Shown here one piece after another: positions 2-37,857 of a DNA stretch of 64,000 nucleotides. Numbering within the stretch: the first letter of the stretch is position 1; every line of letters starts with the position of its first letter. Source of the stretch: Magnetococcales bacterium (GTDB lineage: Bacteria; Pseudomonadota; Magnetococcia; Magnetococcales; Magnetaquicoccaceae). Position numbers and translations under genes: made by a program. The notes beneath the pieces are model-generated. The model was not told the origin of the DNA, did not search any database, and worked only from the letters and a program-made list of their open reading frames with translations. The stretch lies in contig JADGAZ010000014.1 of assembly GCA_015231755.1 (NCBI GenBank), forward strand, positions 62,001 to 126,000. The letters run 5' to 3'.

Positions 2-3000
2 CAAAGCTGGTCGATCCCCAAGGAGGCCAAATCCGGCCATTACGTCGTCGAATTGATCTCCCCCACGATCCCGGAGGCCATGATCCCCATCTCCGGCTCG
101 TTCCGGGTGGACGCGTTCCGGGTTCCCACCATGAAGGCCACCATCGCACCCGCTCCCAACGATCCAACCGATTCGGGCCGGGTTTCGTTCGATCTTCAGG
201 CGCACCATCTTTCCGGCGGCGCAGCCCGGCAGTTGCCCGTGCAACTGCGGGGCATGCTGCAACCGAAAACCATCGCCTTCGACGACTACGAAGAATTCCA
301 GTTCGCCAATGGCCCGGTTCGGGAAGGTATCGAAAAACCCGAAGGAAACGCCGCAGCCGATGGCGAACCGGAAAAAGGGAAAAACAAAATCCTGCCGGTG
401 CAATCCCTGATCCTGGACAACGCCGGCAGTGCCCGTGCCAGTTTCTCCGGACTGGCCCCCACCACCACGCCTCAAACCCTGCTGGCGGAAATGGAGTTCC
501 AGGACGCCAACGGCGAACGGGTGACGGCGTCCACCCAAATGACCCGCCTGCCATCCGGAATCGTGCTGGGCATCAAGACCGACAACCTGCACGAAGGTGA
601 AAACCGTTTGAAAGTCCAGGTGGTGGCCCTGAATCCCCAGGGGAAACCCATGGCCAGGGTGCCGGTTTCGGTGGATCTTCTGCAACGCCTGAACTTCTCC
701 CATCGCAAACGGTTGCTCGGCGGCTATTATGATTATGTGCATCACCAGGAGGTCAAACGGGTTGCCGAATTCTGTTCCGGCATCACCAACGCCTTGGGGC
801 TGATCTTTTGTGAAGGACCGGTCCAGGTGGATGGCAATGTGATTCTGCAAGCCAAAGCCGTGGATGCGAAAAATCAACCCGGTTATGCCAATACATCCCT
901 GTGGGTCTACAAGAACGAACAGGTCTGGTTCGATGTGGATCACCACAACCGCATGGATGTGCTGCCGGAAAAATTGGAATACGATCCGGGAGAAGAGGCG
1001 GTACTGCAATTGCGCATGCCTTTCCGGGAGGCCACGGTGCTGATCACGGTGGAACGGGAAGGCATCCTGGAGAGTTTCACCCGTACCGTCACCGGGGAAA
1101 ATCCCACGGTGCGGGTGCCGATCCGGGGCCATTTCGCGCCCAATGTGTTCATTTCGGCGCTGGCGGTTCGGGGTCGGGTCACCGGGGTCGAACCGACTGC
1201 GGTGATTGATCTGGGAAAACCCGCCTTCCGGTTGGGTTATGCCAAACTCAAGGTGGGCTGGAAAGCCCATGAACTGACCGTCAAAGTGTCCACCGATCAG
1301 TCGGTGTGCAAAATCCGTGATACGGTCACCGCAACCATCCAGGTGACGCCTCCCGCCGACCGTCCGTTACCGGCGGATGCGGAGTTGGCGGTGGCGGTGG
1401 TGGATGAGGGCTTGCTGGAACTCAAACCCAACGATTCCTGGAACCTGCTGTCCGCCATGATGCAAAAACGACCGATCCAGGTGGAAACCAGCACCGCCTT
1501 GGAACACGTGATCGGACGACGCCACTTCGGACGCAAATCTTTCCGCCCCGGCGGCAGCGGCGGACGTCTCACGATGGAACGTCAACTGCTGGATACCCTG
1601 CTGCTCTGGAAAGGCCGGGTCAAACTCGATCCCCATGGTCGCGCCCAGGTCACCATCCCGGTCAACGATCAGCTCACCTCGTTCCGGGTGGTGGCCGTGG
1701 CCCATGCCGGCACCGATCTTTTCGGGACCGGTGCCACCTCGTTTCGCACCACGCAGGATCTGATCCTCCATTCCGCCCTGCCTCCGCTGGTGCGGGAACA
1801 GGATCGCTTCCAGGCCGGATTCACCGTGCGCAACAGCAGTGCGCGCCCCCTGACGATCCAGGTGCAAGCCACCTTGTCCTCTCCGCCGATTGCCGGTGTC
1901 GCCACTCCCCCGCAATTGCCCTCCCTGCCCGTCATTCCCATGACCCTGGAACCCGGAGCCAGCCAGATGGCCAGTTGGGAAGTGACGGTGCCTCTCGATA
2001 TACGGCAGCTCAACTGGCGTCTTGCCGCCAACGCCGAAGGGGCGGAAGATCATCTCAGCGTCTCCCAGGAGGTGATTCCGGTTCATCCGGTCAACGTGAT
2101 GCAGGCTGTCGTGCATTCGGCTGAAGCCAAACTGGAAATCCCCGTGCGTCCACCCGCCGACGCCCTGCCCAATCGGGGCGGGGTGCGACTTCAGGTGCAA
2201 GACCGTCTCACCCAGGATCTTTCCGGGGTGCGGGAATACATGGCGGCCTATCCCTACACCTGTCTGGAGCAACGGGTCTCCAAGGCGGTCTCCCTGCAAG
2301 ACACCAACCTCTGGCAACAATTGGCCTCCGCCCTGCCCACCTACCTGGATGCGGATGGACTGGCCAAATTCTTTCCCCGTCTCGAACACGGCAGCGACGC
2401 CCTGACCAGCTATCTGTTGGCCATCAGTCACGAAACCGGCTGGACCATTCCGGAAGAAACCCGCAAGAAAATGATCGAGGGGCTGCAAAAGTTCGTCCAG
2501 GGCAAAATTTCCCGTCGCTCCCCTTTGCCTGCGGCTGATCTCAATCTGCGCAAACTGGCTGCCCTGGAGGCCATTTCACGGTTCCAGACGGTCGCCAACG
2601 AAGCGTTAAGCTCTCTTTCCATCGAGCCGCGCCATTTGCCCACCTCCGGGGTGATCGACTGGCTGAATCTGCTCAACCGCACCCCCACGCTGCCCAACCG
2701 TACCCAACGACTCCAGGACGCCTCCCAGAACCTGCGCAACCGTCTCTTGTGGCAGGGCACAACGGTCAGTATGGCCAACGAACCCAACGACTCCCTGTGG
2801 TGGCTGCTGGTCTCCGCGGAAACCAATCTCAACCGCTTGCTGCTCGGTGTGCTCAACGACCCGGCCTGGAAGGAGGATCTGCCCAGACTGGTGCGGGGCA
2901 CCTTGACCCGACAGGTCAAAGGCCATTGGGCCTCCTCTCCCGCCAACGCCTGGGGCGTGGTGGCCATGCAACAGGTGGCCAAACGTCTGGAGTCCGACAC

Positions 3001-3628
3001 CATCACCGGCACCAGTCAGGCGGAACTGGCAGGTCATCGACTCGACTTCACATGGCAGACCAACCCCCATGGCACCACTCTGGACCTCCCCTGGCCCGCC
3101 CCCTCCGACCCTCAAACCCTGCTGTTCAGCCATCAGGGCACCGGCAAACCCTGGGTGACCCTCCAAAGCCGGGCCGCCATTCCGCTGCAAAAACCCATGG
3201 CCAACGGCTACACCATTCAGCGCACCATCACCCCGGTCGTCCGCAAAACCGAAGGGGTCTGGAGCCAGGGGGATGTGATGCGGGTACGGCTGGAGTGCGA
3301 AGCCCAGAACGATATGGGCTGGGTGGTGGTGAACGATCCGATTCCGGCGGGCAGCGCGATTCTGGGTTCGGGTCTGGGTCGGGATTCCGTCATTCTCGAT
3401 CAGGGCAAAAACGAATCGGAATCCAGACGCGCCACCTTTGAAGAACGCCGTTTCGATGGCTTCCTGGCCTATTATGAATGGATTCCCAAGGGTCGGTGGC
3501 GTGTGGAGTACACGGTGCGTCTGAACAATCCGGGCACCTTCAACCTGCCACCGGCCCGGGTGGAGGCGATGTATGCCCCGGAATGGTTCGGAGCCACCCC
3601 GCTGGAACCGGTCGTCGTCCAACCATGA
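2..3628 (+). CDS. Alpha-2-macroglobulin-like protein (5' truncated by the window edge)
   Basis: The reading frame is already open at base 2, with no stop before the first in-frame TTG at 53, so the gene begins outside the window. The visible part (about 1,200 residues) has the layout of bacterial alpha-2-macroglobulins: repeated beta-sandwich macroglobulin domains, then a helical thioester domain. The thioester motif YTCLEQ is intact (around base 2260). Family knowledge: these periplasmic, usually lipid-anchored proteins trap attacking proteases through the Cys-Gln thioester and are typically encoded next to PBP1C, as here. The stop overlaps the pbpC start (ATGA), implying translational coupling. 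The signal peptide or lipobox cannot be seen. Identity is secure; protease trapping is inferred from the family. Confidence 0.9.
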   Translation, partial: QSWSIPKEAKSGHYVVELISPTIPEAMIPISGSFRVDAFRVPTMKATIAPAPNDPTDSGRVSFDLQAHHLSGGAARQLPVQLRGMLQPKTIAFDDYEEFQFANGPVREGIEKPEGNAAADGEPEKGKNKILPVQSLILDNAGSARASFSGLAPTTTPQTLLAEMEFQDANGERVTASTQMTRLPSGIVLGIKTDNLHEGENRLKVQVVALNPQGKPMARVPVSVDLLQRLNFSHRKRLLGGYYDYVHHQEVKRVAEFCSGITNALGLIFCEGPVQVDGNVILQAKAVDAKNQPGYANTSLWVYKNEQVWFDVDHHNRMDVLPEKLEYDPGEEAVLQLRMPFREATVLITVEREGILESFTRTVTGENPTVRVPIRGHFAPNVFISALAVRGRVTGVEPTAVIDLGKPAFRLGYAKLKVGWKAHELTVKVSTDQSVCKIRDTVTATIQVTPPADRPLPADAELAVAVVDEGLLELKPNDSWNLLSAMMQKRPIQVETSTALEHVIGRRHFGRKSFRPGGSGGRLTMERQLLDTLLLWKGRVKLDPHGRAQVTIPVNDQLTSFRVVAVAHAGTDLFGTGATSFRTTQDLILHSALPPLVREQDRFQAGFTVRNSSARPLTIQVQATLSSPPIAGVATPPQLPSLPVIPMTLEPGASQMASWEVTVPLDIRQLNWRLAANAEGAEDHLSVSQEVIPVHPVNVMQAVVHSAEAKLEIPVRPPADALPNRGGVRLQVQDRLTQDLSGVREYMAAYPYTCLEQRVSKAVSLQDTNLWQQLASALPTYLDADGLAKFFPRLEHGSDALTSYLLAISHETGWTIPEETRKKMIEGLQKFVQGKISRRSPLPAADLNLRKLAALEAISRFQTVANEALSSLSIEPRHLPTSGVIDWLNLLNRTPTLPNRTQRLQDASQNLRNRLLWQGTTVSMANEPNDSLWWLLVSAETNLNRLLLGVLNDPAWKEDLPRLVRGTLTRQVKGHWASSPANAWGVVAMQQVAKRLESDTITGTSQAELAGHRLDFTWQTNPHGTTLDLPWPAPSDPQTLLFSHQGTGKPWVTLQSRAAIPLQKPMANGYTIQRTITPVVRKTEGVWSQGDVMRVRLECEAQNDMGWVVVNDPIPAGSAILGSGLGRDSVILDQGKNESESRRATFEERRFDGFLAYYEWIPKGRWRVEYTVRLNNPGTFNLPPARVEAMYAPEWFGATPLEPVVVQP

Positions 3629-5964
3629 CCTGGAAACACCGGCAGCGGATTGTCCGGGTCGTGATTCCGCTGGTACTCGTGACTCTGGTCTCGTTCGGGG
3701 TGATGGCCGGTGGTTATACCCGTTGGTGGCGGCCCGGACCCGCAGCAACCGACGCCGCCCCGTTGACCTTCACCCAGGTCCGGGAGCAGTTTGCCAGCAG
3801 CGACGCCTGGCTGTTGGATCGTCATGGCGCGCCTTTGCACCTGTTGCGGGTGAATGCCCAGGGTCGCCGGCTGGAGTGGGTTCCGTTGGAACAAATCTCT
3901 CCGGCCATGATCCGCATGGTGCTGTTGGCCGAGGATCGCCGTTTTTTTGACCACAACGGCGTGGCGTGGTCCGCTGTGCTGGGATCCCTGCGGGATCGTG
4001 TGCTGTCGGACATTCGCCGTGGAGCCAGCACCGTGACCATGCAACTGGCGGGATTGCTGAATCCTGTATTGCGTCCGCTCCGGGGACGCCGGGACTGGCC
4101 CCAGAAATGGTCACAGATGCAGGCCGCCTGGGGGCTGGAATCCGCCTGGAGCAAGAACCAGATCCTGGAAGCCTACCTGAATCTGGTCACCTTCCGGGGG
4201 GAGTTGCAGGGAATCGGGGCGGCCAGTCGCAGCCTGTTCGGCAAGCACCCGGGTGGATTGTCGACCTCCGAAGCCCTGCTGCTCACGGCCCTGATCCCGG
4301 CGCCCAACGGGTCCGCCCCCAGAATCGCCAAACGGGCCTGCACCCTCGCCCGCCATCACGATCCGGAGATCCCCTGCGCTACCCTGGACGAGATGGCGCA
4401 TCGTCTGCTGCGGGGTCGTCTGCCGGCGATCCGCCATCCGGACAACTGGGCCCCCCATGCCGCCCGACTGCTCCTGGAACCCCTGAAAGAGTCGGATATC
4501 ACCGCAATCGCGCCCATTCGTTCCACCCTGGACGCCCCCCTGCAACGGCTGGCCGGCGATCTGTTGAACGCTCAATTGCAGGATCTGGCCAATCATCAGG
4601 TCAAAAACGGCGCCGTGCTGGTGGCCGACAATGCCAGTGGAGAGATTCTGGCTTATGTGGGGGGCGGAGACAATCATCCCTCCACCCGTTATGTGGATGG
4701 GGTTCGGGCCGTGCGTCAGGCGGGATCGACCCTCAAGCCGTTTTTGTATCAACTGGCCATCGAGCAACGCCTGATCACCCCGGCCTCCCTGCTGGACGAC
4801 TCCCCGGTGGAACTGACCACGCCCACGGGCGTCTATGTGCCCAAAAACTATGACCACACCTTCAAGGGATGGGTCAGCGCCCGAACCGCGCTGGCCTCAT
4901 CCCTCAATGTGCCCGCCGTGCGCACGCTGCTGCTGACCGGTCTGCCCCCCTTCATCCAACGATTGCGACAACTGGGTTATGACCAGCTCCAGCGGGAAGG
5001 GGAATATTATGGTTACGCGCTGGCCCTGGGATCGGTGGAGGTCTCCCTGTGGCAACAGGTGGCGGCCTACCGCACCCTGGCCATGGGCGGGAAATACATC
5101 CCGTTGCGGTTGCGTGCGGATCAACCGATCCCGGCGGAAAAACCAGTCTCTTCGGCGGCCTCTGCCTTTTTAGTGGCGGACATGCTCGCCGATCCCGTGG
5201 CCCGCAGCATCACCTTCGGCCTCCACAACCCCCTGGGCACCCCGTTTTGGAGTTCGGTCAAAACCGGCACCAGCAAACAGATGCGGGACAACTGGTGCAT
5301 CGGTTTCAGCCACCGTTACACGGTCGGGGTCTGGATGGGCAATTTCGAGGGTCAACCCATGCGGGATGTCTCCGGAGTATCCGGATCCGCCCAGATATGG
5401 CAGGGATTGATGCTCCACCTGCACCCGCCAGACGACAACCAGAATCCACCCCTCCCCCTGACGCCACCGGCAGGGGTCACACAGGTGACGACCACCTTTC
5501 ATCCCCCGTTGGAGCCGCCCCGACAGGAGTGGTACCTGACCGGCACCGAGATGGGCGACATCCACCTCAATGACATCGCCTCCCGCCCTCCCCGCATCAC
5601 GGAACCCGCCGATGGGAGCATTCTGGCCCTGGACCCGGATATTCCTCCAGGCCATCAACGGCTTTTTCCGCGCATGGAACCGCTCCATCCGCGCCACCAC
5701 TGGCGCATGGATGGCCAACCCCTGGATGTCTCCCGGGAAGGATGGACGCTGACCTCCGGACCGCACCACCTGGAACTTCTGGATGAACACGACACAATCG
5801 TGAGCAGCAGCCGTTTTCAGGTCCGGGGACAAGAGACGACGCAACGGGGAAGGGCAAGGCCAAGGGGAGGGAGGATCCAAGCTTTTCCAACCCGACCGGC
5901 GGATGAGGGGGAGGCCAACCGCCCTATTTCTTCAGATCCTGTTTCCACCAATCCTGAGGAATGA
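3625..5964 (+). CDS. pbpC: Penicillin-binding protein 1C (bifunctional transglycosylase/transpeptidase)
   Basis: 779 residues, counting from the ATG that overlaps the upstream stop (ATGA). A longer frame back to 3478 exists but only reads antisense-like sequence inside the upstream gene. Order: short cytoplasmic tail, one TM helix (about 8-30), GT51 transglycosylase domain with EDRRFFDH and the RRGASTVTMQL block, transpeptidase domain with active-site SxxK in RQAGSTLKPF and the KTGTSK triad motif, then a C-terminal beta domain typical of PBP1C. It should polymerise and cross-link peptidoglycan in the periplasm. The pairing with alpha-2-macroglobulin is the usual one and suggests cell-wall repair after protease or predator attack (family inference). 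Its last 41 bp overlap the 3' end of the convergent receiver gene. Confidence 0.93.
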   Translation: MTWKHRQRIVRVVIPLVLVTLVSFGVMAGGYTRWWRPGPAATDAAPLTFTQVREQFASSDAWLLDRHGAPLHLLRVNAQGRRLEWVPLEQISPAMIRMVLLAEDRRFFDHNGVAWSAVLGSLRDRVLSDIRRGASTVTMQLAGLLNPVLRPLRGRRDWPQKWSQMQAAWGLESAWSKNQILEAYLNLVTFRGELQGIGAASRSLFGKHPGGLSTSEALLLTALIPAPNGSAPRIAKRACTLARHHDPEIPCATLDEMAHRLLRGRLPAIRHPDNWAPHAARLLLEPLKESDITAIAPIRSTLDAPLQRLAGDLLNAQLQDLANHQVKNGAVLVADNASGEILAYVGGGDNHPSTRYVDGVRAVRQAGSTLKPFLYQLAIEQRLITPASLLDDSPVELTTPTGVYVPKNYDHTFKGWVSARTALASSLNVPAVRTLLLTGLPPFIQRLRQLGYDQLQREGEYYGYALALGSVEVSLWQQVAAYRTLAMGGKYIPLRLRADQPIPAEKPVSSAASAFLVADMLADPVARSITFGLHNPLGTPFWSSVKTGTSKQMRDNWCIGFSHRYTVGVWMGNFEGQPMRDVSGVSGSAQIWQGLMLHLHPPDDNQNPPLPLTPPAGVTQVTTTFHPPLEPPRQEWYLTGTEMGDIHLNDIASRPPRITEPADGSILALDPDIPPGHQRLFPRMEPLHPRHHWRMDGQPLDVSREGWTLTSGPHHLELLDEHDTIVSSSRFQVRGQETTQRGRARPRGGRIQAFPTRPADEGEANRPISSDPVSTNPEE

Positions 5965-9930: not shown

Positions 9931-10455
9931 TCACAGATTTTCCAGGCGTTCCAGCTCCTGGATCGACTTGCGGATGCGCTTGAGTTTGATCTCGCCGCTG
10001 TCGGTATAAAAGACGATCTGCCGCGCCCAGGGACCGCTCACATCCGACGCGGTCAGATGGAGCCGACTGACCCGGATGAACTCCATGGCCGTATCGACGT
10101 TGCGTTTTCCCATGCTCAACATGGGATTGTCCCGAGCCGCCGGGAGATTGGTGAACATCATGCCGCCACCGAACAGTTTCACCTCCAACTCTTGACGGGA
10201 AACCCCCTTGTGATCGAACCAGGCCAGCATGAACTCCAAGGAACACTGAACATGATCCCCCAGTTCCCGACAGATCTTCAATCCCGAATCGGAGCGCGGG
10301 CAATAATGGACCGGTTTGCGCGCATGGCAAATCGCGCCCTGCCGGAGACGGGAATGGTAAAACGTGATCGACACACAAGAACCGAGGACCGTATGCACCT
10401 CCGCCGGTGCGGTACCGATGAACAGTTCTCCTGGATCGAGCCGGATGATTTTCAT
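9931..10455 (-). CDS. cheD: Chemoreceptor glutamine deamidase CheD
   Basis: 174 residues. The catalytic Cys lies in LGSCVSI and the catalytic His in GAICHA, with a later KLFGGG block, all as in CheD. In the family CheD deamidates glutamines in chemoreceptors and can bind CheC to modulate adaptation. No chemoreceptor is encoded in this window, so its substrate must be elsewhere. It lies 13 bp downstream of the divergent CheC-like gene, and a partnership between the two is a reasonable inference. Confidence 0.92.
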
Positions 10456-10468
10456 AAGGTTTCCGGCC

Positions 10469-11122
10469 TCAGGCCATGTGCATGGCGATGAAGTGGTCGA
10501 TTTCCGTTTTCAGCAACGGCAGACCGTTTCCATCCATCCAGGTCAGCAGAGAACCGGTCACCTCCTTGCCGGTCAAAGCGAAATCCACACGCAGCATCAA
10601 CAGGGGCCGATCCTCCTCACCGTTGGCGTCCTCCAACGCCAGATAGGCGGGCAACGCCTCCGGATCCCCACGAAAAAAAATCGGTTTCTCCCCGACGATT
10701 TCCGATCCGAACAGCAGGCTCAAGGAACTGGCACAGGTATACAATAAAATTTCGCCGGTCAATTGCATGGATTCGGCTTCCACCAGCGCCGCCATGGATT
10801 CCGGGAGCGGTCCCCCGTGCAAGGCATCGAGAAAATGACCCAGATCCGCGGCCCGCACCAGCAACACGGCCATGCCCGGTATGGCGTGCCCCTCGGAAAA
10901 AACCAGTCGGTAACGCATGCCCACCAGCCCCACAGCCATGCCGTACATATGCCGGATATAATCCGAAATGGATTTTTCGGTCAGCATGGAAAAACAGGGC
11001 ACGGACAATTCGATTTCCGCATCCACCATTTCACTCAACGTGGCAGCGGTCATGCCAAAGCTGATGTTGAACAGCTCCTTGAAGGCGTCTTCTTCCACTT
11101 CGTCCAGGAGGAGAGGTGACAT
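10469..11122 (-). CDS. CheC-like protein with one degenerate phosphatase motif
   Basis: About 217 residues from the ATG at 11122 (MSPLLLDEVEEDAFKE). A GTG six codons upstream is also possible, but it has no better ribosome binding site. The first CheC motif, E-x3-E-x2-N, is present in EDAFKELFNISFG. In the second position (ESMQLTGEILLYT) the usual Asn is Glu. CheC proteins hydrolyse phospho-CheY using paired E/N motifs, so this copy probably keeps only one active half. It sits between the REC-MBL-cNMP gene and cheD. It may act as a CheD partner or scaffold rather than a full phosphatase (inference). Confidence 0.8.
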   Translation of the reverse strand: MSPLLLDEVEEDAFKELFNISFGMTAATLSEMVDAEIELSVPCFSMLTEKSISDYIRHMYGMAVGLVGMRYRLVFSEGHAIPGMAVLLVRAADLGHFLDALHGGPLPESMAALVEAESMQLTGEILLYTCASSLSLLFGSEIVGEKPIFFRGDPEALPAYLALEDANGEEDRPLLMLRVDFALTGKEVTGSLLTWMDGNGLPLLKTEIDHFIAMHMA

Positions 11123-11143
11123 GCCAGTTCCCGCTTGCACGTA

Positions 11144-13804
11144 TCAGGAGGAGTGGGAAAGCCGGGTCCGCTTTTGGAAAATTTCCAACATTTTCCAATG
11201 GATGATCGGAGATTCCAGCAGATCGGCCCAGCTCAGCCGCACCAGTTCTCCGGCCTCCTGCGCCCGAAACCGACTGGGGCAGGGCAAACGCTGCAAATAT
11301 CCCCATTCGCCAAAGAATCCACCCGGCTCGATCATCTCCAGATGCTCTCCCGAGACACTCTCCATGGCCACCCGTCCCTTGACCACCATCCAGAGTGTGG
11401 GGGTTTCCGCGGCCAGATCAATCTCTTCTCCTTCCTTCATGGGGAGGGTGACCAGGGATTGGGCGATGCGGGCCAGAAAAACAAACGAAGTCTGTTCCCC
11501 GAAAAGCCAAGTGTGGCGCAAAAATCTGACTTTTTCCAAGACTTTCATCAGTTTGCCATACAGGCCGCTGTTTTCCAGAAAAATCTGGAACTGCCGGACC
11601 GGAAAACGCAACGCCGCACTGTGGGAGAGGGCGCGGTAACTTCCTTCATCCTTCAAGGTTTCCGGAAAGATCAACTGCAACCCCATGAACGCCCCGAATC
11701 CCAAGTGATAGCGAATCCCGAAATCCGAATCCAGATAAACCACATCCCCGGAGACGGTCATTTCCACATATTCGTTCCGGTCCCCCTCCCAGCGAATGAA
11801 AGAGCCGGCGTTGTATTGCACGATGGGACCATTGATCAACATGCGGATGTCGTCGTCGGAGATTTCCGGGAACAGCTCCCGCAGATAATAAAAGCTCCGT
11901 TGCCGCCGGTAATCCTGTTCGCCGGGGATCAGGATATCCAACGATCCGAACATGGCCTCCGAACCGATTTCCATCTCTTCGGTGGTCAGATCCCGGGACA
12001 GATGGGCCAAAAGCAACCGTTTGGAGGGGTCGCCGCGGAAATCCTGCGCCATGCCATGAATCATGCCGCCACCGATGTCGAGTTTTTTCAGATCGGCTTT
12101 GAAATGGTAGTTGTTCTTGATGGTCTGGATCTGCTCGGGAGAGACCGCAAAAGGCCCCGGAACCGCCATCCGGTCCAAGACCGCAAAGGAGGTCAGGTCG
12201 GTCCAATGGGCATAGGTGCGATACCCGTCATCGGCCAAGGCGCGAAAAACCAGCAGCGAGGTTTCCACCGGATGGGGGGAGTAGATGGGTCGCACCTCCA
12301 ACCCACCCACCTGATTCCAGACATCGAACTCCAGGTCGTGAATCTCGAAGAATTGATGAAATTTATCCTCCTCGAAGGACATGAGGGCCGCGAACTTCTT
12401 GGCCACCGAGGAGCGCACCATGGGGGTGGCGTAGTATTTCAAGCGGCGGTCGGTCTGGATCAGGGCGGGCAGGCCGGCGAAGTGATCGTCGTGGGCATGG
12501 GTGTGGAAGATCCCTTCCACCTCGCTGATGTCGATACCCAAGGCGCTCAAAACATTCAGCACCCCGGGAATGGCGTCGATGAGATAAAACCGCCCCTGAA
12601 ACATCAACACACTGCTCATGCTGGGACGTTCCGAGTCCCATCCATCCCCTTCGCCGGTGTGCAACACCGCGAAATAGTGGCGATGAACCCGATGATATCC
12701 CAGGGGATACGGGGATTTGTAGACCGCATCCTTGGAAAGGTTCAAATCGATTTCCGCGCTTTGATGCCGGAACGTGAAACGAAAACGGTTGCAGCCGACC
12801 CGTTGGATTCCCACCCCGTTGCGGATTTCCTGGGGCTTGTCGCTGACCATCAGGGTATCGAGAAACTCCGAAGGCTCACGGATCTTGCCAAAGGCGAACT
12901 GCAATTTGATGCGCATCATCATGTCGGCGGTCTCGTCATCCAGACCCGCCTGGATCAACTCCTCCCGGGACAACCCGTAATTGCCCCGATGGATATAGGC
13001 CAGTTGCGCCTTGACCTGATCCTCCGCGCCGATGAGCATGGGTTTGATGCCGGTATTGTTGGGATGGCCGGGAATGATCATCCCCTGACGATACAGCATC
13101 TGGAGTACCGGGAACTCCGCCATGTTGGCAAAGCCGCCGTTTTGCACCAACAGATCAGAGAGCAGAATGACATTCGGCCCGGTTTCAAAGTTGACCCCGT
13201 TTTTGATGGCCGGCGCGTTCAACCCCTTGAGCATCAACAGCTTGACCACTTCGCTGGGACATCCGCACAGGATGTAGAGTCCGGCTTCCGGGATTTGCAA
13301 CCAGAAGACCCCCGGCCCCACCTGGATGGTCAGCAGATTGCCCATGCTGGCCCGCAGGGCCTCCTGGGCCTTTTCCAGTTCCAGGGTCCGTTCCTGGACC
13401 TGCTGCTCCAACAGACGACTTTGATCCGCCAAAGCCAGATGGGTCCGCAAGCGCACCCGCAGAATCGCCGGATTGATGGGCTTGAAAACATAATCCACCG
13501 CGCCCATGGAAAATCCCGCCGCCTCGTCGCCGATCTGATCGAGGGCGGTGACGAAAACTACAGGAATATGACGGGTGACGGGATTTTCCTTAAGGCGACG
13601 ACACACCTCGAAACCATCCATTCCCGGCATCATCACATCCAGCAGGATCAAGTCGGGCTGGGGATCGCTGCCGGCCCGTTGCAGCGCCTGTTCTCCATTC
13701 TTGGCCACCACGATTTTGTACTGATCCCGCAACAATCCGGTCATCACGTCCAGATTGGACTTTTCGTCGTCAACGATCAGAATCCTGACTTGTCTGTCTT
13801 GCAT
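11144..13804 (-). CDS. Response regulator with metallo-beta-lactamase fold and C-terminal cNMP-type domains
   Basis: 886 residues. Residues 5-120 are a receiver domain (DD at 12-13, phosphoacceptor D56 in LLDVMMP, K108 in VFKPI). A short coiled coil follows at about 125-155. Residues about 160-640 form a metallo-beta-lactamase fold with HxHxDH (H436, H438, D440, H441) and candidate further metal ligands H511, D536 and H583 or H601. The C-terminus (about 645-880) looks like two cyclic-nucleotide-binding beta-barrels; only the second keeps an FGE phosphate-binding-cassette motif. The predicted protein is a phosphorylation-gated metal-dependent hydrolase or metal/oxygen sensor. Spirochete chemotaxis operons contain a di-iron MBL oxygen sensor (ODP), so an MBL output here is plausible, but the zinc-type HxHxDH leaves substrate and metal open. 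It is co-transcribed with two hybrid kinases. Confidence 0.85.
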   Translation of the reverse strand: MQDRQVRILIVDDEKSNLDVMTGLLRDQYKIVVAKNGEQALQRAGSDPQPDLILLDVMMPGMDGFEVCRRLKENPVTRHIPVVFVTALDQIGDEAAGFSMGAVDYVFKPINPAILRVRLRTHLALADQSRLLEQQVQERTLELEKAQEALRASMGNLLTIQVGPGVFWLQIPEAGLYILCGCPSEVVKLLMLKGLNAPAIKNGVNFETGPNVILLSDLLVQNGGFANMAEFPVLQMLYRQGMIIPGHPNNTGIKPMLIGAEDQVKAQLAYIHRGNYGLSREELIQAGLDDETADMMMRIKLQFAFGKIREPSEFLDTLMVSDKPQEIRNGVGIQRVGCNRFRFTFRHQSAEIDLNLSKDAVYKSPYPLGYHRVHRHYFAVLHTGEGDGWDSERPSMSSVLMFQGRFYLIDAIPGVLNVLSALGIDISEVEGIFHTHAHDDHFAGLPALIQTDRRLKYYATPMVRSSVAKKFAALMSFEEDKFHQFFEIHDLEFDVWNQVGGLEVRPIYSPHPVETSLLVFRALADDGYRTYAHWTDLTSFAVLDRMAVPGPFAVSPEQIQTIKNNYHFKADLKKLDIGGGMIHGMAQDFRGDPSKRLLLAHLSRDLTTEEMEIGSEAMFGSLDILIPGEQDYRRQRSFYYLRELFPEISDDDIRMLINGPIVQYNAGSFIRWEGDRNEYVEMTVSGDVVYLDSDFGIRYHLGFGAFMGLQLIFPETLKDEGSYRALSHSAALRFPVRQFQIFLENSGLYGKLMKVLEKVRFLRHTWLFGEQTSFVFLARIAQSLVTLPMKEGEEIDLAAETPTLWMVVKGRVAMESVSGEHLEMIEPGGFFGEWGYLQRLPCPSRFRAQEAGELVRLSWADLLESPIIHWKMLEIFQKRTRLSHSS

Positions 13805-13822
13805 GGTCCAAACTCTCGTGGC

Positions 13823-15373
13823 CTAACTGCCGTTTTTTGCGAATCTGCTCTGATATTCCTTCCAGATTTCCAGCACTTTGCGGCGGATCTCGGGAAACGG
13901 GGTATCCTTGCGCAGGGTGTATCTGGCGCCCTTGGCCAGACAAAGTGTCCATTTTTCCTGATCCAGGCACGAGGTCAACATGATCACGCAGGCATTGGGA
14001 TCCTTGGCAAAAATGGCTTGCAAGGTTTCCATGCCATCCATCACCGGCATGGTGATGTCGCAGATCACCAGATCGGGTTTCAGGGATTGATACAGTTCCA
14101 CCCCTTCCCGTCCGTTTTCCGCCTCACCCACCCACTCGAATCCTTCTTCGGCAAAAGCCTTGCCATACATAAGCCGCAACGCATAATCATCGTCGATCAA
14201 CAGCAGCCGCAGAGGCTTTCTGATGAGGGGCGACGTGAACAGTTTGACTCCCGGGGTCTCCTGCCAGTCTCCGGGGAAAAAACAGGTAAAGATCGCGCCG
14301 CGATCCACATTGTTGGCGACCACGATTTCTCCATGATGGGCATCGACAATCCTTTTGACAATGGAAAGTCCCAGCCCGGTACTTTTTTCCCGGGCCGTTG
14401 GCCGGGTACTCAATTTCTGGAAGGCCTCGAAGAGGCGATGACGCTCCGTGTCGGGAATGCCCGGCCCCTGATCCACCACCTGAAAGTATACCTGATTGTT
14501 GCCGGTGCCGACCCGCACCTGCACCTCGGAGTCCGACGGGGTGAACTTGATGGCGTTGCTGAGCAGGTTGTCGATCACCTGGGCCAGACGATCCGGATCC
14601 AGAGGGGTTCCGGGGGTTTCTGTCAGTTCGGTCCGGATCGTCACCCCCTTTTGACGTGCGGCGAACTTCAGGATTTCGACGCGCTCGGCCACCAGACCCG
14701 ACAGATCGCACCGTTGTTTGTCCAGCACGAAATGGCCACTTTCGAGGGTGGTGACATCCAGCAGGTCATGGATCAGTTTCAGCATCTGACCCGACACATC
14801 GTGAATGGTCTGAATGAAGCTGCGTTCCTCGGTCTCATCCAGTTCCATGGTCAACAGGATCTCGCTCAACCCGCTGATGGAGTTGAGCGGATTGCGCAGA
14901 TCATGGGCCGCCATGCCCAGAAAACGATTCTTGATCTCGTTGAGTTCGATCAGATGCAACCGCTGACGCTGCAAGGCAAGCTGGGTCTGAATGCGGGCCA
15001 GGGCAACCGCCGGTCGGAACGGCTTACGGATGAAATCCACCGCCCCCACCGCCAGACCTTGGGTTTCATCCTCTTCCGACTCCTTGCCGGTGATGAAAAT
15101 GATCGGAATGCCGGAGGTCTCCGGGTCGGCCTTCAGGCGACGACACACCTCGAAACCATCGATATCCGGCATCACGATGTCCAGCAGGATCAAATCGGGT
15201 CGGGGGATGACCTTGGCCCGTTTGATCGCCTGTTCCCCGTTTTTGGCCACCACGGTCTTGCAGGCATGCTCCAACAGTCCCACGAGCACATCGATATTGG
15301 TGGTCTCGTCATCGACGATCAAGATTTTGGCTTGATCTTCACTCATGACCGCGCGCATGCCTGCATCCATCAT
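13823..15373 (-). CDS. Hybrid histidine kinase (REC-HisKA-HATPase-REC)
   Basis: Up to 516 residues; internal Met codons at 15358 and 15346 (MSEDQAKIL) are alternative starts. N-terminal receiver (LLDIVMPDIDG), short helical linker, HisKA with phosphorylatable His in MAAHDLRNPLNSI, HATPase with N box DNLLSNAIKF and G boxes DQGPGIP and GLGLSIV, then a C-terminal receiver (VICDITMPVMDG). There is no TM segment or PAS domain, so it is a cytoplasmic relay kinase whose input is probably phosphorylation of its own N-terminal receiver. Its receiver resembles that of the adjacent REC-MBL-cNMP protein, which suggests domain duplication. That protein is the obvious candidate partner. Confidence 0.9.
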   Translation of the reverse strand: MMDAGMRAVMSEDQAKILIVDDETTNIDVLVGLLEHACKTVVAKNGEQAIKRAKVIPRPDLILLDIVMPDIDGFEVCRRLKADPETSGIPIIFITGKESEEDETQGLAVGAVDFIRKPFRPAVALARIQTQLALQRQRLHLIELNEIKNRFLGMAAHDLRNPLNSISGLSEILLTMELDETEERSFIQTIHDVSGQMLKLIHDLLDVTTLESGHFVLDKQRCDLSGLVAERVEILKFAARQKGVTIRTELTETPGTPLDPDRLAQVIDNLLSNAIKFTPSDSEVQVRVGTGNNQVYFQVVDQGPGIPDTERHRLFEAFQKLSTRPTAREKSTGLGLSIVKRIVDAHHGEIVVANNVDRGAIFTCFFPGDWQETPGVKLFTSPLIRKPLRLLLIDDDYALRLMYGKAFAEEGFEWVGEAENGREGVELYQSLKPDLVICDITMPVMDGMETLQAIFAKDPNACVIMLTSCLDQEKWTLCLAKGARYTLRKDTPFPEIRRKVLEIWKEYQSRFAKNGS

Positions 15374-15393
15374 CTATTTAAGGTTCCCAGATT

Positions 15394-18144
<2,751 letters not shown>

Positions 18145-18160
18145 GCCGCGTGTGCCGGTC

Positions 18161-18823
18161 TCATAGCGTGGCGAGAATGACCTTCAACTCCCGTTTCAGG
18201 ATCTCCATCGAGTACTGGGAAAACAACAGCACGACAAATCCCCCCAGGGTGTGTTGGGTATCCTCTTCGTCATGGGTCTTGAAATCCATCATCAGCACGA
18301 AGGCCCGCTCGCTGTCCCCGGAAAGATTGGAGGTGAGGGCCTGTTTCTGCGCGGCCAGATGGGAAGAGATGTCCAACAGAAAATTGCTGCTTCCCTTCAG
18401 GAATTCGGCGGCCTCGAACTCGAATTGAATCGACATCATCTGGGTGAAACTCTCCAGAAAGGCGTTCAGCACCACATTGCCCACATCCTGAAGGGTCTCT
18501 TGTTCCAACTCCATCAGCACTTCCAGGGGCATCTGCTCGTTGAGCAGGGTCCGGACCAGTTCCAGACTCTCGGCCCCCGGAAAAATCAACAAGGCTGTGC
18601 CGGTCAGTTCTCCGGTGAAATTCTGTCGGATGGCGACCAGTTTTTCCTCTTCGTTGGCCACCAGCATTTTGGTGGCCTCTTCGTAGGGAACCACCTTGAG
18701 TTGTGGCAGGGAGAGCAATACCTCGTTGTTCACCATCTGGCTCAACGAAGCCGCAGCCATCCCCAGACCCATGTTGAAAAATTCCTTCAGGGCGTCCTCT
18801 TCCATCTCACTCAGGCAGAACAT
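18161..18823 (-). CDS. cheC: CheC-family CheY-phosphate phosphatase
   Basis: 220 residues from the ATG at 18823, chosen because GAGGAG lies 8 bp upstream; the longer frame to 18940 reads into the cheY intergenic region. Both CheC motifs are present: [12 protein letters not shown] near the N-terminus and [14 protein letters not shown] near the middle. Family knowledge: CheC or CheX removes phosphate from CheY in species without CheZ. It follows cheA and cheY directly, so the neighbouring CheY is its likely substrate. The second cheC-like gene of the run (10469-11122) lacks one motif. Confidence 0.85.
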
Positions 18824-18902
18824 CGCGTCGCTCCTCGGCCGGGATCCATCATGACCATCCTCACATGACACTGCGCTCTTCTTCCCCTCCGGGATCGACC
18901 AT

Positions 18903-19262
18903 TCAGGCGATCTGTTGCAGAATATCCGCGATTTTGCCATCGGCGATGGGCTTTTTGATGAATCCGATGCCCATGCTCTCCGCCCGCTGATGCATCCGGT
19001 CCTGAATGTTGGCCGTCACCAGATAGACCGCCATCCTGGGATGTTTCACCATCAATTTTTCCGCCAGCTCAATGCCGTTCATGCCGGGCATGTTGAAGTC
19101 AAGCAAGGCCAGATGCAACGGTGTATCGGACAGATTCAGCGCCTCCTCCCCATCCTTGGCTTCGATGAGATTCCACTCCGTAAATTTGGTGGCAAAAATT
19201 TTACGAACCATCATCCGTGCCAGACTGCTGTCGTCTACGATCAAGACCGTCTTTTTATCCAT
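18903..19262 (-). CDS. cheY: Chemotaxis response regulator CheY
   Basis: 119 residues beginning MDKKTVLIVDDSS, with AAGGA 5 bp upstream. D10 and D11, phosphoacceptor D55 (LLDFNMPGMNG), a Thr in VTAN and the Lys in IKKPIA complete the active site. A single receiver with no output domain, placed between cheA and cheC, so it is the natural target of CheA. Whether it binds a flagellar switch or another target cannot be told from the window. Confidence 0.9.
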   Translation of the reverse strand: MDKKTVLIVDDSSLARMMVRKIFATKFTEWNLIEAKDGEEALNLSDTPLHLALLDFNMPGMNGIELAEKLMVKHPRMAVYLVTANIQDRMHQRAESMGIGFIKKPIADGKIADILQQIA

Positions 19263-19297
19263 GAATCCTTGCTCCACAAAAAAATGATGAATGACCT

Positions 19298-20986
19298 CTA
19301 CAACCTGATCAATTCCGGCACGTTCAAAAGAAACGACACCGAACCATCCGGCATCACGGCGGTTCCGGCCAAAATAGGAATATCGGCGAAAATGCGGTTG
19401 ACCGGCTTGATCACCAGACTGGCCGGCTCCTTGATGCCATCCACATCCAGGGCGAAAGCCCGCTCTTCGGACTGCACCACCACCACATGCAGGGCGGATT
19501 CGGCCTGAATCCGCTCCACGCTGCGGGTCACGGCAGCCGCCTCTTCCGGCGCGGTGACCACCTGCCGCAATGCCACCAGGGGAAACAGCCGATCCCGCAC
19601 CCGCACCATGGGGGATTGCATTTTGCCTTCAACGTTCCGGGCCACTTCCGGGCCGTGATAAGAGACCAGCTCGACAATGCTCACTTGGGGGATGGCATAG
19701 GTTTCGCCGCAGGCCGTGACCAGCAGCACCGGAACGATGGCCATGGTCTGGGGAATGCGCAACCGGAAACTCGAACCGCCGCCGAATCGACTGGATATGG
19801 TCACCGAGCCTCCCAGCTTGTCGATGGCGGCCTGCACCACATCCATGCCGGTTCCCCGCCCGGAGATCTTGCTGACCTGCTCGACCGTGGAAAAACCCGG
19901 CGCCATGATGAGTTTCATCACATCGGCTTCCCGCATCTCCCCGGCCTGCTCCGGGGTGATCAACCCCCGGTCGATGGCCTTGGCCCGTACCCGGTCCACA
20001 TCGATGCCGCGTCCATCGTCGGCGATTTCCAGATAAATCTGACCCTGCTTCTGCTCGGCGGTCAAACGGACCCGACCCACCGGCGACTTGCCCCGGGCAA
20101 TCCGTTCTTCCGGAGACTCCAGGCCGTGGTCCACGGCGTTGCGAATCAGGTGTCCCAGCACCTCCTTGATGGAAATCAGCACATTCCGATCCACCTCGGT
20201 CTCTTCGCCCACCAGATCCAGCACCACCTTTTTTTGGGTCTCCACCGCCAGATCCCGCACCAGACGATGGTAGGTATCCAGAATGCGTCCGATGGGTTGC
20301 AGACGGTACTGCAACACCTCGCCTTGCAACTGTTGAATCTGTTGTCCCAGACTTTCCAGGGATTGATCCATCTGGGACGGATTGCGGCTGATGGCATATT
20401 TCAGTTGATTGAAAACCGCCCCCAACTCTCCGACCTGATTCATCAAGGCATCCAGACGCTCAATGGAAAGACGGATCGAGTCGATCCGCCCCGCTCCGCT
20501 CTCTCCGTCGCTTTTGAGGGAAGACCGCTCCGCCCCCGGATCGGCATGGGATTCACCATTCCCGGCGTTTGCCGAAGTCTTGTCCGCGCCGCTCTGCCCC
20601 TGAATCCGACCCAACTGAAAAATCAACGGGGAAAAATCCACCTCCCCTTCGGATCCGGTCTGCTCGATGGTCTGCAACGTGCGCCGCACCGTGTCCAGCA
20701 CACTCAACAACTGGTTGCCGATCAGGATATCGATCACCAGTTTGTCATCCCGCATCAAGTCCAACAGGGATTCGGCGGCATGGGTCAACTCCTCCAGCCG
20801 CTCGAATCCCATCATGCGGCAGTTGCCCTTGACCGTGTGCATGTCCCGAAAAATGGAATTGAGCAGCTCCCGGTTGTTCGGGGTGCTCTCCAGTTGCAAC
20901 AATCCGCGCTCGATCCGGTCCAATGCTTCCCGGTTCTCGGAGAAAAACTCCTGCATGAGGGCTTGCTGGCTGGCTTCGTCAAACAT
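19298..20986 (-). CDS. cheA: Chemotaxis histidine kinase CheA (no P2 domain)
   Basis: 562 residues from MFDEASQQ; an upstream in-frame start at 21037 adds 17 non-conserved residues. P1/Hpt with H50 in MHTVKGNCRMMGF; a Ser/Gly/Glu-rich linker (about 130-165); P3 dimerisation helices (RLDALMNQVGELG); P4 ATPase with LIRNAVDHGLE, DDGRGID and SGRGTGMDVV; and a P5 CheW-like domain at the C-terminus. The linker is too short for a normal P2 CheY-docking domain. CheA autophosphorylates on P1 and passes phosphate to CheY. It is the first gene of the run. No CheW or receptor gene accompanies it here. Confidence 0.94.
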   Translation of the reverse strand: MFDEASQQALMQEFFSENREALDRIERGLLQLESTPNNRELLNSIFRDMHTVKGNCRMMGFERLEELTHAAESLLDLMRDDKLVIDILIGNQLLSVLDTVRRTLQTIEQTGSEGEVDFSPLIFQLGRIQGQSGADKTSANAGNGESHADPGAERSSLKSDGESGAGRIDSIRLSIERLDALMNQVGELGAVFNQLKYAISRNPSQMDQSLESLGQQIQQLQGEVLQYRLQPIGRILDTYHRLVRDLAVETQKKVVLDLVGEETEVDRNVLISIKEVLGHLIRNAVDHGLESPEERIARGKSPVGRVRLTAEQKQGQIYLEIADDGRGIDVDRVRAKAIDRGLITPEQAGEMREADVMKLIMAPGFSTVEQVSKISGRGTGMDVVQAAIDKLGGSVTISSRFGGGSSFRLRIPQTMAIVPVLLVTACGETYAIPQVSIVELVSYHGPEVARNVEGKMQSPMVRVRDRLFPLVALRQVVTAPEEAAAVTRSVERIQAESALHVVVVQSEERAFALDVDGIKEPASLVIKPVNRIFADIPILAGTAVMPDGSVSFLLNVPELIRL

Positions 20987-21135
20987 GCGCTTTTGACCTT
21001 GATTCCGACGGCTCGCGATTTGGTCGCCAAATATCAAAAAATATCCAAAACAACTCGCTTACGCAATCCCGAATCCGTCTCCAAGCCCCCATTCAACGGA
21101 AAAACGGACAAAACAGGCGCAATTTTAATAAATGA

Positions 21136-24453: not shown

Positions 24454-24794
24454 TCAAGAGAGGAGCCGAAAGGGTCGATTGTCCATCATACGCCCAAACG
24501 GGATGGGTAGCAAAGCGCCCCATGGCGAAGATCACGGATCGGATCTTCAGGAAACTTAAAAATACCCCCAGTTCGATAGCCGCGCCACGGGTATGCCTCT
24601 TTGTGCCCTCCGCGCGCTCTCCCGGGTTGATTTGAATCCCGGAAGATCCGTATGCTGGAAGCTCACGGTTCAATCACGGCATGCGAATGGCATGCGGATT
24701 GAATCCACGGACCGGTCAAGATTGTTCCAGACTCGACCATTATGCCCTGCAACCTTCTGTAAAATATTTTGTGTATGGTGCGCCCGTGATCCCG
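24454..24794. other. Divergent intergenic region, no gene recognised
   Basis: About 340 bp between the AsmA-like gene (-) and the GT39-like gene (+). The frame of the latter is open back to 24681, but the extra 38 residues are not membrane-like. No convincing -35/-10 pair or strong hairpin was found. There is an AT-rich stretch (around 24755-24780) just upstream of the chosen + start that could hold a promoter. Confidence 0.4.
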
Positions 24795-26495
24795 ATGCGA
24801 CGACTCCGGATGGTTGATCTGTTGCTGGCCTTGGGCGTGGCGGGTCTGGTGGCCCTGGTGTTTGACGCCCGCGCCCTGACCCCGTCCGAATGGCGGGAGT
24901 GGCTGACCCGTTGGAGCGGTGATTTTCTGGGGGTGAACGCCACCTTGATCCTGTTGACCGGTATCCTGGAATCCGAAACCATCCTGGGGCTGCTGCGCCG
25001 TCTGATGCCGGGTCGCCGCCTCTGGATTCTGCCGGCGCTGCTGATCGGCGGCACCCTCTTCACCGCCCTGCTCGCCCCGCAAACCCATCGCATCTTCTAC
25101 GACGAAACCATCTATCTGAGCATCGGACAGAATCTCGCCCATCTCAACCGCGCCCAGACCTGCCACTCCGGGGGGGAGTCCCATGGCCGGATGGTGTGCG
25201 ATCGGGGGGAGTACAACAAACAGCCCAATGGTTATCCCTTCCTGACCAGTTTGATATTCCGACTCTTCGGCACCTCGGAACAGGCGGCCTTTCATCTCAA
25301 CAATCTGCTGCTCGGTTGCGCGGCGGTGGTCGCTTTGCTGCTTGTGTTTCCCGTGGGGGGGGGATGGCAGGCCGGAGTGTTCGCCGCCTGGGTGGTGATC
25401 TTGAATCCACAAAATCTCCACTGGTTCAACACCACCGCCGCCGAACCCGCCGCCGCCCTGACTGTGGCCCTGGCGATGCTGGCGGCGTTTCACTTTCGCC
25501 GCACCCGGACCACTCCGGCCTTGACCCTGCTCACCGGCCTGACCGCCTTTGCTCTGCATTTCCGCCCCGAATCCCTGCTGCTCATACCCCTGGTGGCACT
25601 CATTGCCCTTCCCGCGGCCCTGACACACCCCAGACGACTGTTGGCCCATCTGGTGCTTTTCTTGTTTCTGACCCTGCCCCTGTGGCTGCACATGGCCCTG
25701 TTCCACAACCACCCCTGGGGCAGTTCCGGTCAGCCTTTCAGCCTGGAGTATCTCCCGGACAACCTCGCCGTCAACGGCTGGCACTATCTGAACAATCAGG
25801 CTTTTCCCCTGCTGTTCACCCTGCTGGCCGCAGTCGGACTCCTCCGGCCCGGCCCCCGACTCCGGGAACAGGGGATGATCGGGCTGTGGTTTCTGCTTTT
25901 TTGGGGTGTGTTTCTATTTTTCTACGCCGGCAGCTACCACTATGGAGCCGACATCCGCTACGCGCTGCTGTCGGCCATGCCCCTGTCCATCCTGGCGGGT
26001 TTGGGGGCGGAAACCCTCTGGAAGGGAGTACTCCGGCACGCGACCCCAAATCCCACCATCGCCACCGCTCTGGTGGTCGCACTGCTGTGGTGCGCCCATT
26101 GGCCTTTTTTACCCCTGGTGCGGGCCACCACCGACGAAGCCTGGGCCGCCCGCGCCGACCTCCACGACGCCCGCCTCATGGCCACCCGACTGCCCCCCGA
26201 CTCCCTGGTCCTGACCCACAATCCCAATCTGTTTCAATTGTGGGGACATCACGCGGCCCAGCTCTCCTTGGCCCAATCCGATCCCGATTACGTCAACCGG
26301 GTGCTGTTTCCCCGCTACCGGGGGGGGATCTTTCTGCACCACAATTTCTGGTGCAACGTGCCGGACAAGCTCCAGAACAGCTTTTGCGACCAAGCCCACC
26401 AGCAATTCCAAACGGAATTGATCGCCGAATACCTGGAAAAAGATTACCGTTTCGCCCTGTACCGCCTGCGACCCAAAACCACCCCCATCCCGTGA
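24795..26495 (+). CDS. GT39/ArnT-like integral membrane glycosyltransferase
   Basis: 566 residues from MRRLRMVDLLLALG. About 11-12 predicted TM helices, including N-terminal, 85-105 and several in 200-430. An acidic pair lies in the first periplasmic loop (FYDETIYLSIGQNLA), the arrangement of the catalytic loop in PMT/ArnT-type polyprenyl-phosphate-sugar transferases. The C-terminal 120 residues are soluble and hydrophilic. Such enzymes use undecaprenyl-phosphate-linked sugar on the periplasmic side; acceptor (lipid A, protein or glycan) cannot be assigned. The upstream start is uncertain because there is no clear ribosome binding site. It is followed by a radical SAM gene 119 bp downstream. 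Confidence 0.72.
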   Translation: MRRLRMVDLLLALGVAGLVALVFDARALTPSEWREWLTRWSGDFLGVNATLILLTGILESETILGLLRRLMPGRRLWILPALLIGGTLFTALLAPQTHRIFYDETIYLSIGQNLAHLNRAQTCHSGGESHGRMVCDRGEYNKQPNGYPFLTSLIFRLFGTSEQAAFHLNNLLLGCAAVVALLLVFPVGGGWQAGVFAAWVVILNPQNLHWFNTTAAEPAAALTVALAMLAAFHFRRTRTTPALTLLTGLTAFALHFRPESLLLIPLVALIALPAALTHPRRLLAHLVLFLFLTLPLWLHMALFHNHPWGSSGQPFSLEYLPDNLAVNGWHYLNNQAFPLLFTLLAAVGLLRPGPRLREQGMIGLWFLLFWGVFLFFYAGSYHYGADIRYALLSAMPLSILAGLGAETLWKGVLRHATPNPTIATALVVALLWCAHWPFLPLVRATTDEAWAARADLHDARLMATRLPPDSLVLTHNPNLFQLWGHHAAQLSLAQSDPDYVNRVLFPRYRGGIFLHHNFWCNVPDKLQNSFCDQAHQQFQTELIAEYLEKDYRFALYRLRPKTTPIP

Positions 26496-26614
26496 CCGGG
26501 ACGATTCCGGGTTGACTTCTGGTTCGGAAAAGACATGATATTTCCGATAAAATGGATTCACACCGGGACCATCCAGGCGACATTACAATCTTCACTTCCT
26601 CAAGGAAGATATTC

Positions 26615-29825: not shown

Positions 29826-30590
29826 ATGAAAATCACCATTCTGGGCAGTGGCACCGGTGTTCCCTCGCTTCGGAGGCACTCTCCGGGCTATTGCCTGGAA
29901 GTAGCGCAACGGCGCTATCTCATCGACTGCGGCAGCGGCACCTTGTTGCAACTGGAACGGGTAGGCTTGAGCTTTCAGGATCTAGACGGGGCCTTCATCA
30001 CCCATGTACATGCCGATCACATCGGCGACCTGACCCCGCTGGTCCACGCCTTGCGCCTGCCGGGCATAGACCGCACCCGGCCTTTCACCCTGTACGGTCC
30101 CCCGGGATTTCCCGCCTTTTTCGACCAGATCATCGCCCCGGTGGCCGCTCCTCCCACCACGTTCCGGTTTGAGGTGCGGGAAGCTCTGGGCGTCTGGGAG
30201 TTGGATGGCCTGACAATCCGCACCCATGCCACCCCCCACTCCAGCCGTTTCGCCAGCCGCGCCTATCGTTTCGAGCATCAGGGAGGAAGCGTGGTCTTTT
30301 CCGGGGATACGGATCATGATCCGGGACTGGTGGACTTCCTCGCCGACGCGGATCTGGCCATCCTGGAGTGTTCCACCCTGGACGAAGCCAAAGTGGAAGG
30401 GCATCTGTCCGCCGGACTGTGTGGTCAAATGGCGGCTCAGGCCCGGGTGCGGCGTTTGCTCCTGACCCATTTTTATCCCATCGATGGACCGGACTCCCAG
30501 TTTTTCGACCAGTGCCGCAGGCACTATTCCGGCCCTCTGGAACTCGCCGCCGACCGCATGACCCTTGAGATTCCAACGCCTCCCCCATGA
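29826..30590 (+). CDS. RNase Z-like metallo-beta-lactamase-fold hydrolase
   Basis: 254 residues. HVHADHIGDL supplies HxHxDH; downstream HATPHSSRFASRAYRFE, SGDTDHD and LLTHFYP give the remaining metal ligands. The layout is that of RNase Z/arylsulfatase-like MBLs, but the RNase Z exosite arm is not visible, so tRNA processing should not be assumed. Cytoplasmic (no signal peptide). Its stop overlaps the Sel1 gene start (ATGA). Confidence 0.85.
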   Translation: MKITILGSGTGVPSLRRHSPGYCLEVAQRRYLIDCGSGTLLQLERVGLSFQDLDGAFITHVHADHIGDLTPLVHALRLPGIDRTRPFTLYGPPGFPAFFDQIIAPVAAPPTTFRFEVREALGVWELDGLTIRTHATPHSSRFASRAYRFEHQGGSVVFSGDTDHDPGLVDFLADADLAILECSTLDEAKVEGHLSAGLCGQMAAQARVRRLLLTHFYPIDGPDSQFFDQCRRHYSGPLELAADRMTLEIPTPPP

Positions 30591-37846: not shown

Positions 37847-37857
37847 CCCCGCTCCCC

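Follow-up and report, generated by a model that had tools for sequence, protein, structure and literature searches.

The gene at 11144-13804 on the minus strand of the window, by which we mean the whole stretch of 64,000 nucleotides of Magnetococcales DNA that was analysed, may encode a response regulator with a metal-dependent metallo-beta-lactamase (MBL) phosphodiesterase as its output, the most likely substrate being a cyclic mononucleotide, either cAMP or cGMP. We give this reading a probability of about 0.45. The protein has 886 aa from an ATG start and consists, by Pfam and AlphaFold, of a receiver, a signalling helix, an N-terminal core domain (N-domain), the MBL domain and two barrels like cyclic-nucleotide-binding domains (cNBDs). 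Its domains and their folds, the intact metal site, the conservation, the swappable inputs, the conserved operon and the co-occurrence with class III cyclases come directly from computation; we infer the catalysis, the substrate, which way the switch works and what the barrels do.

Pfam calls on the protein were all above curated cut-offs: Response_reg at residues 8-119 (5e-26), Lactamase_B_2 at residues 407-540 (2e-10) and cNMP_binding, which matched twice (8e-12). The AlphaFold model of the full-length protein has a pLDDT of 90.7 and a pTM of 0.81, and AlphaFold and Foldseek agree on the fold of every predicted domain. An earlier sequence-only reading of this DNA had described a complete receiver with D56, an HxHxDH motif at 436-441 and two cNMP-type barrels with an FGE motif in the second. 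These all hold: D56 is at its place in a complete Pfam receiver, the metal motif is HAHDDH at exactly those residues, the FGE is residues 831-833, and structure prediction recovered the receiver, the MBL and both barrels with the expected folds. We also looked for two outcomes that speak against that reading, a fold other than cNBD at 645-880 and loss of metal ligands in homologues; both barrels have the cNBD fold, and the ligands are invariant (86/86). It had made no mention of residues 158-360, which form an additional strongly conserved domain.

The MBL domain (residues about 375-630, 11915-12682, like all parts of the gene on the minus strand) carries the full hydrolase signature of its superfamily, HxHxDH plus His, Asp and His. 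Four of the ligands are in the HAHDDH motif (H436, H438, D440 and H441; 12482-12499). The others are the predicted metal ligand H511 (12272-12274), which aligns in profile comparison with an Apyc1 His, the predicted bridging ligand D536 (12197-12199) and the predicted ligand H601 (12002-12004), and all seven are invariant in 86/86 sequences. In the same 86 sequences, which come from many phyla, H533, K573, K574, D576, H583, D588 and D592 are invariant too. The N-domain (residues 158-360, 12725-13333), recognised by conservation and Foldseek, has its own invariant residues: C180, K188, Q221, N227, E230, H247 and N250. Because conservation is even across phyla and the invariant residues are concentrated in the N-domain and the MBL, the core points to an enzyme; the pattern is as would be expected of an enzyme and not of a scaffold.

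We modelled residues 155-640 separately (pLDDT 92.5, pTM 0.91). For the MBL, the nearest solved structures found by Foldseek with this model were RNase Z (the top match), a PhnP-family diphosphatase, ELAC, Apyc1 and YhfI, while profile matches in the PDB include Apyc1 (8.5e-6, 4.5e-5 and 1.3e-4), ELAC1 (7e-5) and an MBL named as an arylsulfatase (8gyg). Its neighbours by fold and profile are mostly phosphodiesterases, and the domain resembles that branch of the superfamily (RNase Z, PhnP, YhfI and Apyc1). For YhfI and Apyc1, cNMP phosphodiesterase activity has been measured, and Apyc1, as other class II enzymes, hydrolyses by means of HxHxDH and two zinc ions (PMC9117128). They share with our protein the MBL fold, HxHxDH and an equivalent third His, and are its closest branch by structure and profile; unlike it, they are single-domain homodimers without regulatory domains (PMC9117128). 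Long-form RNase Z, ELAC2 (8rr1), matches over the whole length of N-domain and MBL jointly, with a TMq of 0.54 versus about 0.38 for single-domain matches, and since it takes in both together, the N-domain is possibly a second MBL that has degenerated. An hhalign comparison of N-domain with MBL for an internal repeat was negative by sequence, so the pseudo-MBL idea stands on structure.

Cyclases that would make a substrate are regularly found with the core. Class III cyclases were present in 55/55 core-positive genomes of a phylum sample, in 30/30 further core-positive genomes, located by way of named loci that lie beyond the genome set of the window, and in 157 of 244 core-negative genomes. 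A core-bearing genome lacking a cyclase, which would tell against a cNMP substrate, was sought, and there was none among those examined. Ancestry and a signalling-rich genome type are confounders here, and we therefore count this co-occurrence as a refutation test passed, not as proof. In 21 genomes of the order no class I (PF00233) or PF02112 class II phosphodiesterase scored above cut-off, and CpdA-like proteins were found in four of the 21, none of them in the genus of the window. The target itself does not match Pfam PDEase_II (PF02112) and has no class I domain (PF00233) in Pfam. The argument from missing phosphodiesterases is weakened by stand-alone YhfI/RNase Z-like MBLs, which are present in most order-mates, and the substrate of the core therefore remains something that we infer.

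A stand-alone MBL is also encoded in the window at 29826-30590 on the plus strand, 16 kb from the target. It resembles YhfI and ELAC (1zkp, 2e-21; 6kns, 9e-17), has a below-cut-off match to a 'cyclic nucleotide-degrading phosphodiesterase' model, and is possibly a second cNMP phosphodiesterase.

The core, about 730 aa with the receiver excluded, was found in 41/41 genomes of the order searched, with 1-7 copies in each, and at no fewer than 519 loci in a scan of a genome collection. We retained 80 of these at least 519 loci, and they have at least 46% identity across nearly the whole core. They come from Magnetococcales, Desulfobacterota, Nitrospirae, Nitrospinota, Planctomycetota, SAR324, Campylobacterota and Cytophagales, and also beta-, gamma- and alphaproteobacterial metagenome-assembled genomes (MAGs); relatives of the core are mostly from MAGs. 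Architecture labels were receiver (34), hemerythrin (17), SBP (12), CHASE2 (2), receiver with hemerythrin (1, L037), Zn_protease (1, L117) and none or undetected (21). N-terminal to the core there is a receiver, or SBP_bac_3 followed by a transmembrane (TM) part, or CHASE2 with TM segments, and hemerythrin is C-terminal to the core, in another clade. A quick tree of the core, which has several open forks, requires no fewer than 16 changes of label. Since inputs are exchanged around a constant core and extracytoplasmic sensors stand upstream of it, we identify the core as a modular signalling output and not an ODP-type di-iron sensor.

Some individual loci have further arrangements. In a SAR324 genome (L117:5977-8661) a Zn_protease domain (PF05618) is fused C-terminally to the core. 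In Rhodoferax the gene immediately after a sensorless core gene encodes a GGDEF-hemerythrin protein (L120:8212-9804), which suggests that O2 sensing and c-di-GMP engage in cross-talk with the core. A 445-aa cold-shock-domain protein (L070:3988-5322 and L069:643-1977, with a similar one in L067) is encoded about 200 bases upstream of the REC-MBL-cNBD gene; its N-terminus looked cyclase-like by eye, and it was rejected as a cyclase after Pfam found the cold-shock domain only. Plasmids had no match to the core alone, their tblastn matches to the full-length protein being dominated by receivers, and no viral protein with the architecture of the target was among the matches listed from a BFVD structure search. 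PADLOC and PHROGs returned generic receiver, MBL or cNBD matches and nothing specific, and an anti-phage reading was dropped on this account.

The target lies in a minus-strand operon with the order CheA, CheY, CheX/CheC-like, PAS-HK-REC-REC-Hpt, REC-HK-REC, target, CheC-like, CheD. CheA (19298-21037) has Hpt, H-kinase_dim, HATPase and CheW domains and is followed by a CheY-type single receiver (18903-19277, Pfam) and a CheX/CheC-like phosphatase gene (18161-18940; CheX 4e-4, CheC 2e-3). Then come two hybrid kinases recognised by Pfam, both candidate phosphodonors: PAS-HisKA-HATPase-REC-REC-Hpt (15394-18144), which would donate through its Hpt, and REC-HisKA-HATPase-REC (13823-15373), 18 bases upstream of the target. 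Directly downstream, after a 3-base gap, is a CheC-like gene (10469-11140; Pfam 0.017, in a conserved position) and then CheD (9931-10455; 1.5e-17). Co-directional cheA, cheY, cheC, cheD and two hybrid kinases had been read from the letters, and we agree, with the reservation that both CheC/CheX assignments are weak, being below Pfam cut-off. Among the adjacent genes scanned around this cluster (9931-21037, minus strand) there is no MCP, CheW, CheR or CheB.

Across ten genomes of the genus the core keeps 76-95% identity, and those contigs from the genus that reach far enough all have the order kinase, target, CheC, CheD, which excludes a chance arrangement of gene and operon. Magnetaquicoccus-type genomes have che genes adjoining the locus in divergent orientation. 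In WMHbin3 (L074:4589-9918) a similarly built che operon contains a REC-MBL-cNBD paralogue, with an extra single receiver after it. Gene calls around the loci of relatives were crude; among the neighbours scanned there was no constant partner gene outside the genus, and no cyclase as an adjacent gene.

The receiver (residues 8-119, 13448-13783) has the response-regulator signature of an acidic pair (D12, D13), phospho-acceptor Asp (D56), Thr/Ser (T86) and Lys (K108). In the receiver-bearing rows of the alignment, D56 and K108 are each kept in 26/26 and T86 in 23/26. A 42-residue linker helix of the signalling-helix type (QVQERTLELEKAQEAL, residues 112-153, 13346-13471, from DSSP of the AlphaFold model) joins receiver to core, and relatives L109 and L124 have a comparable one. 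We propose that the hybrid kinases of the operon or CheA would phosphorylate D56, that a receiver dimer would then alter the coiled helix 112-153, and that this change would raise or lower the activity of the N-domain/MBL catalytic core. The barrels, similar to PKA regulatory subunits, would give the protein an allosteric or dimerisation module of its own, working otherwise than through the ordinary cyclic-phosphate cassette. A phosphorylation-switchable MBL effector within a chemosensory operon had been suggested before, and as a prediction it is supported by the invariance of D56 and K108 and of the metal ligands (86/86).

The core might instead be a signal-controlled MBL hydrolase of some other substrate than cNMP, such as RNA ends (the RNase Z case), a nucleotide adduct on a protein or another small messenger. 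That RNase Z is the top Foldseek match and that long-form ELAC2 covers N-domain and MBL would fit, and the many invariant residues away from the metal site are not explained by any known cNMP enzyme. However, RNase Z models all stay far under their cut-off on the target (39.4 bits versus 292.95 for TIGR02651), and one to several paralogues per genome, with varied sensors, are more what one expects of a second-messenger enzyme than of tRNA processing. We consider a substrate of this kind unlikely, while keeping it in serious view.

ODP/flavodiiron MBL sensors are marked by an HxExDH di-iron site. The sequence-only reading had brought up such sensors in support of a sensor or effector role. On a rival explanation of this kind, the core would be a non-catalytic di-metal oxygen or metal sensor reporting to the Che proteins. 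An MBL fold inside a chemotaxis operon is indeed common to both, and another clade has the core fused to hemerythrin, which binds O2 at a di-iron site. The target differs in its metal motif, which is HxHxDH (H438 in 86/86), in its family, there being no ODP/flavodiiron match in Pfam, and in its position, the core being at the output where it has sensors of its own (SBP_bac_3, CHASE2, receiver). With structural neighbours that are mostly phosphodiesterases besides, this role is not supported, and we regard it as very improbable.

Barrel 1 (residues about 645-765, 11510-11872; AlphaFold, Foldseek, HMMER) and barrel 2 (residues about 766-886, 11147-11509; Pfam, AlphaFold, HMMER) match PKA regulatory subunits in tandem (Foldseek, E about 1e-13). 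Positions of the phosphate-binding cassette were set by HMMER alignment with Plasmodium PKG. Barrel 1 of the target is without the cassette Glu (L709) and Arg, and barrel 2 keeps its FGE (E833) and has C842 at the Arg position. Among the 86 sequences, barrel 2 has the cassette Glu in 82 and an Arg at the Arg position in 8; barrel 1 has the Glu in 39 and has lost the Arg; and the canonical cassette occurs in 1/86 sequences for each barrel. The usual cAMP/cGMP contact is missing, and ordinary cNMP binding by the barrels is therefore unlikely. A cyclic nucleotide as their ordinary ligand, proposed earlier, thus finds no support, the Arg being absent from both barrels here and in almost all relatives. 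A changed ligand and a purely structural role are equally possible. Trypanosome PKA-R has lost the same Arg and binds purine nucleosides in place of cAMP (PMC10959531). If the target barrels similarly bound an altered ligand, a nucleoside or a reaction product, this would be compatible with the phosphodiesterase reading; nucleoside-bound trypanosome PKA-R is among the Foldseek matches, and barrel 2 retains its Glu (82/86) though the Arg is lost. Yet the second trypanosome Glu, two residues past the conserved one, is absent (G835 in the target) and barrel 1 of the target lacks even the cassette Glu. We hold binding of such an altered ligand to be rather unlikely.

The sequence-only reading could not name this domain combination, but its two halves are known from Dictyostelium: MBL-cNBD-cNBD is the order of GbpA/GbpB, and a receiver with a cAMP phosphodiesterase is that of RegA (PMC11988041). 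In GbpA/GbpB an MBL phosphodiesterase domain precedes two cNBDs, and these enzymes are cNMP phosphodiesterases activated through the barrels; in RegA, driven by a phosphorelay that includes hybrid kinases and the phosphotransfer protein RdeA, a receiver precedes the cAMP phosphodiesterase (PMC11988041). By analogy, the target is a combination of the two plans. Compared by domain order, it shares with GbpA/GbpB (class IIb) two tandem cNBDs placed after an MBL catalytic domain, in intracellular signalling; it differs in being bacterial, in its extra N-domain and receiver or other sensor, and in its barrels, which are without the phosphate-binding Arg and outside the canonical cassette definition. 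Because functional cNMP-binding cassettes are absent, we do not claim membership of class IIb, the likeness to Gbp being one of architecture, and because the Arg is missing, activation of the core by cNMP in the GbpA/B style is doubtful. The target resembles RegA in that a receiver stands upstream of what may be a cNMP phosphodiesterase, and in that hybrid kinases and an Hpt domain are close by; the RegA catalytic domain, however, is of class I, unrelated to MBL, and the target has no class I domain.

If the core is a cNMP phosphodiesterase, sensor-wired cNMP removal would be present in every examined genome of the order and at hundreds of other loci, a che operon would be linked directly to cyclic nucleotides, and the family would be a bacterial counterpart of the slime-mould GbpA/GbpB architecture. 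To our knowledge, bacteria have many sensor-fused cyclases and few known couplings of cAMP/cGMP removal to two-component or chemosensory signals. At somewhat under even odds, we would describe the family as a widespread bacterial output module made up of N-domain, MBL and two degenerate PKA-R-like barrels. Directly controlled by receivers, periplasmic sensors or hemerythrin, it would degrade a nucleotide second messenger and so match, on the removal side, the class III cyclases that are fused to sensors; its barrels would sense some ligand that is not cNMP. An MBL with two cNBDs is already known, in Dictyostelium. In the open-access literature we found no description of the core as a bacterial family; against that literature, what is new is the family itself with its size and the modularity of its sensors, the form that carries a receiver inside a che operon, the presence of the N-domain, and the lost cyclic-phosphate cassettes.

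Other genes of the window are listed here for completeness. At 53-3628 and 3478-5964 (both plus strand) there is an Alpha-2-macroglobulin and PBP1C-type pair, ordinary in bacteria. A 604-aa ORF without a Pfam match (24681-26495, plus strand) adjoins a radical SAM/SPASM protein (26552-27730, plus strand). Two cytochrome-d1-heme-domain proteins, NirF/NirN-like, are encoded on the minus strand at 42848-44422 and 47595-48836, near a CtaA-like protein. A 666-aa ORF at 35891-37891 (minus strand) has collagen triple-helix repeats and a Peptidase_S74 endosialidase-chaperone domain and is phage-tail-fibre-like.
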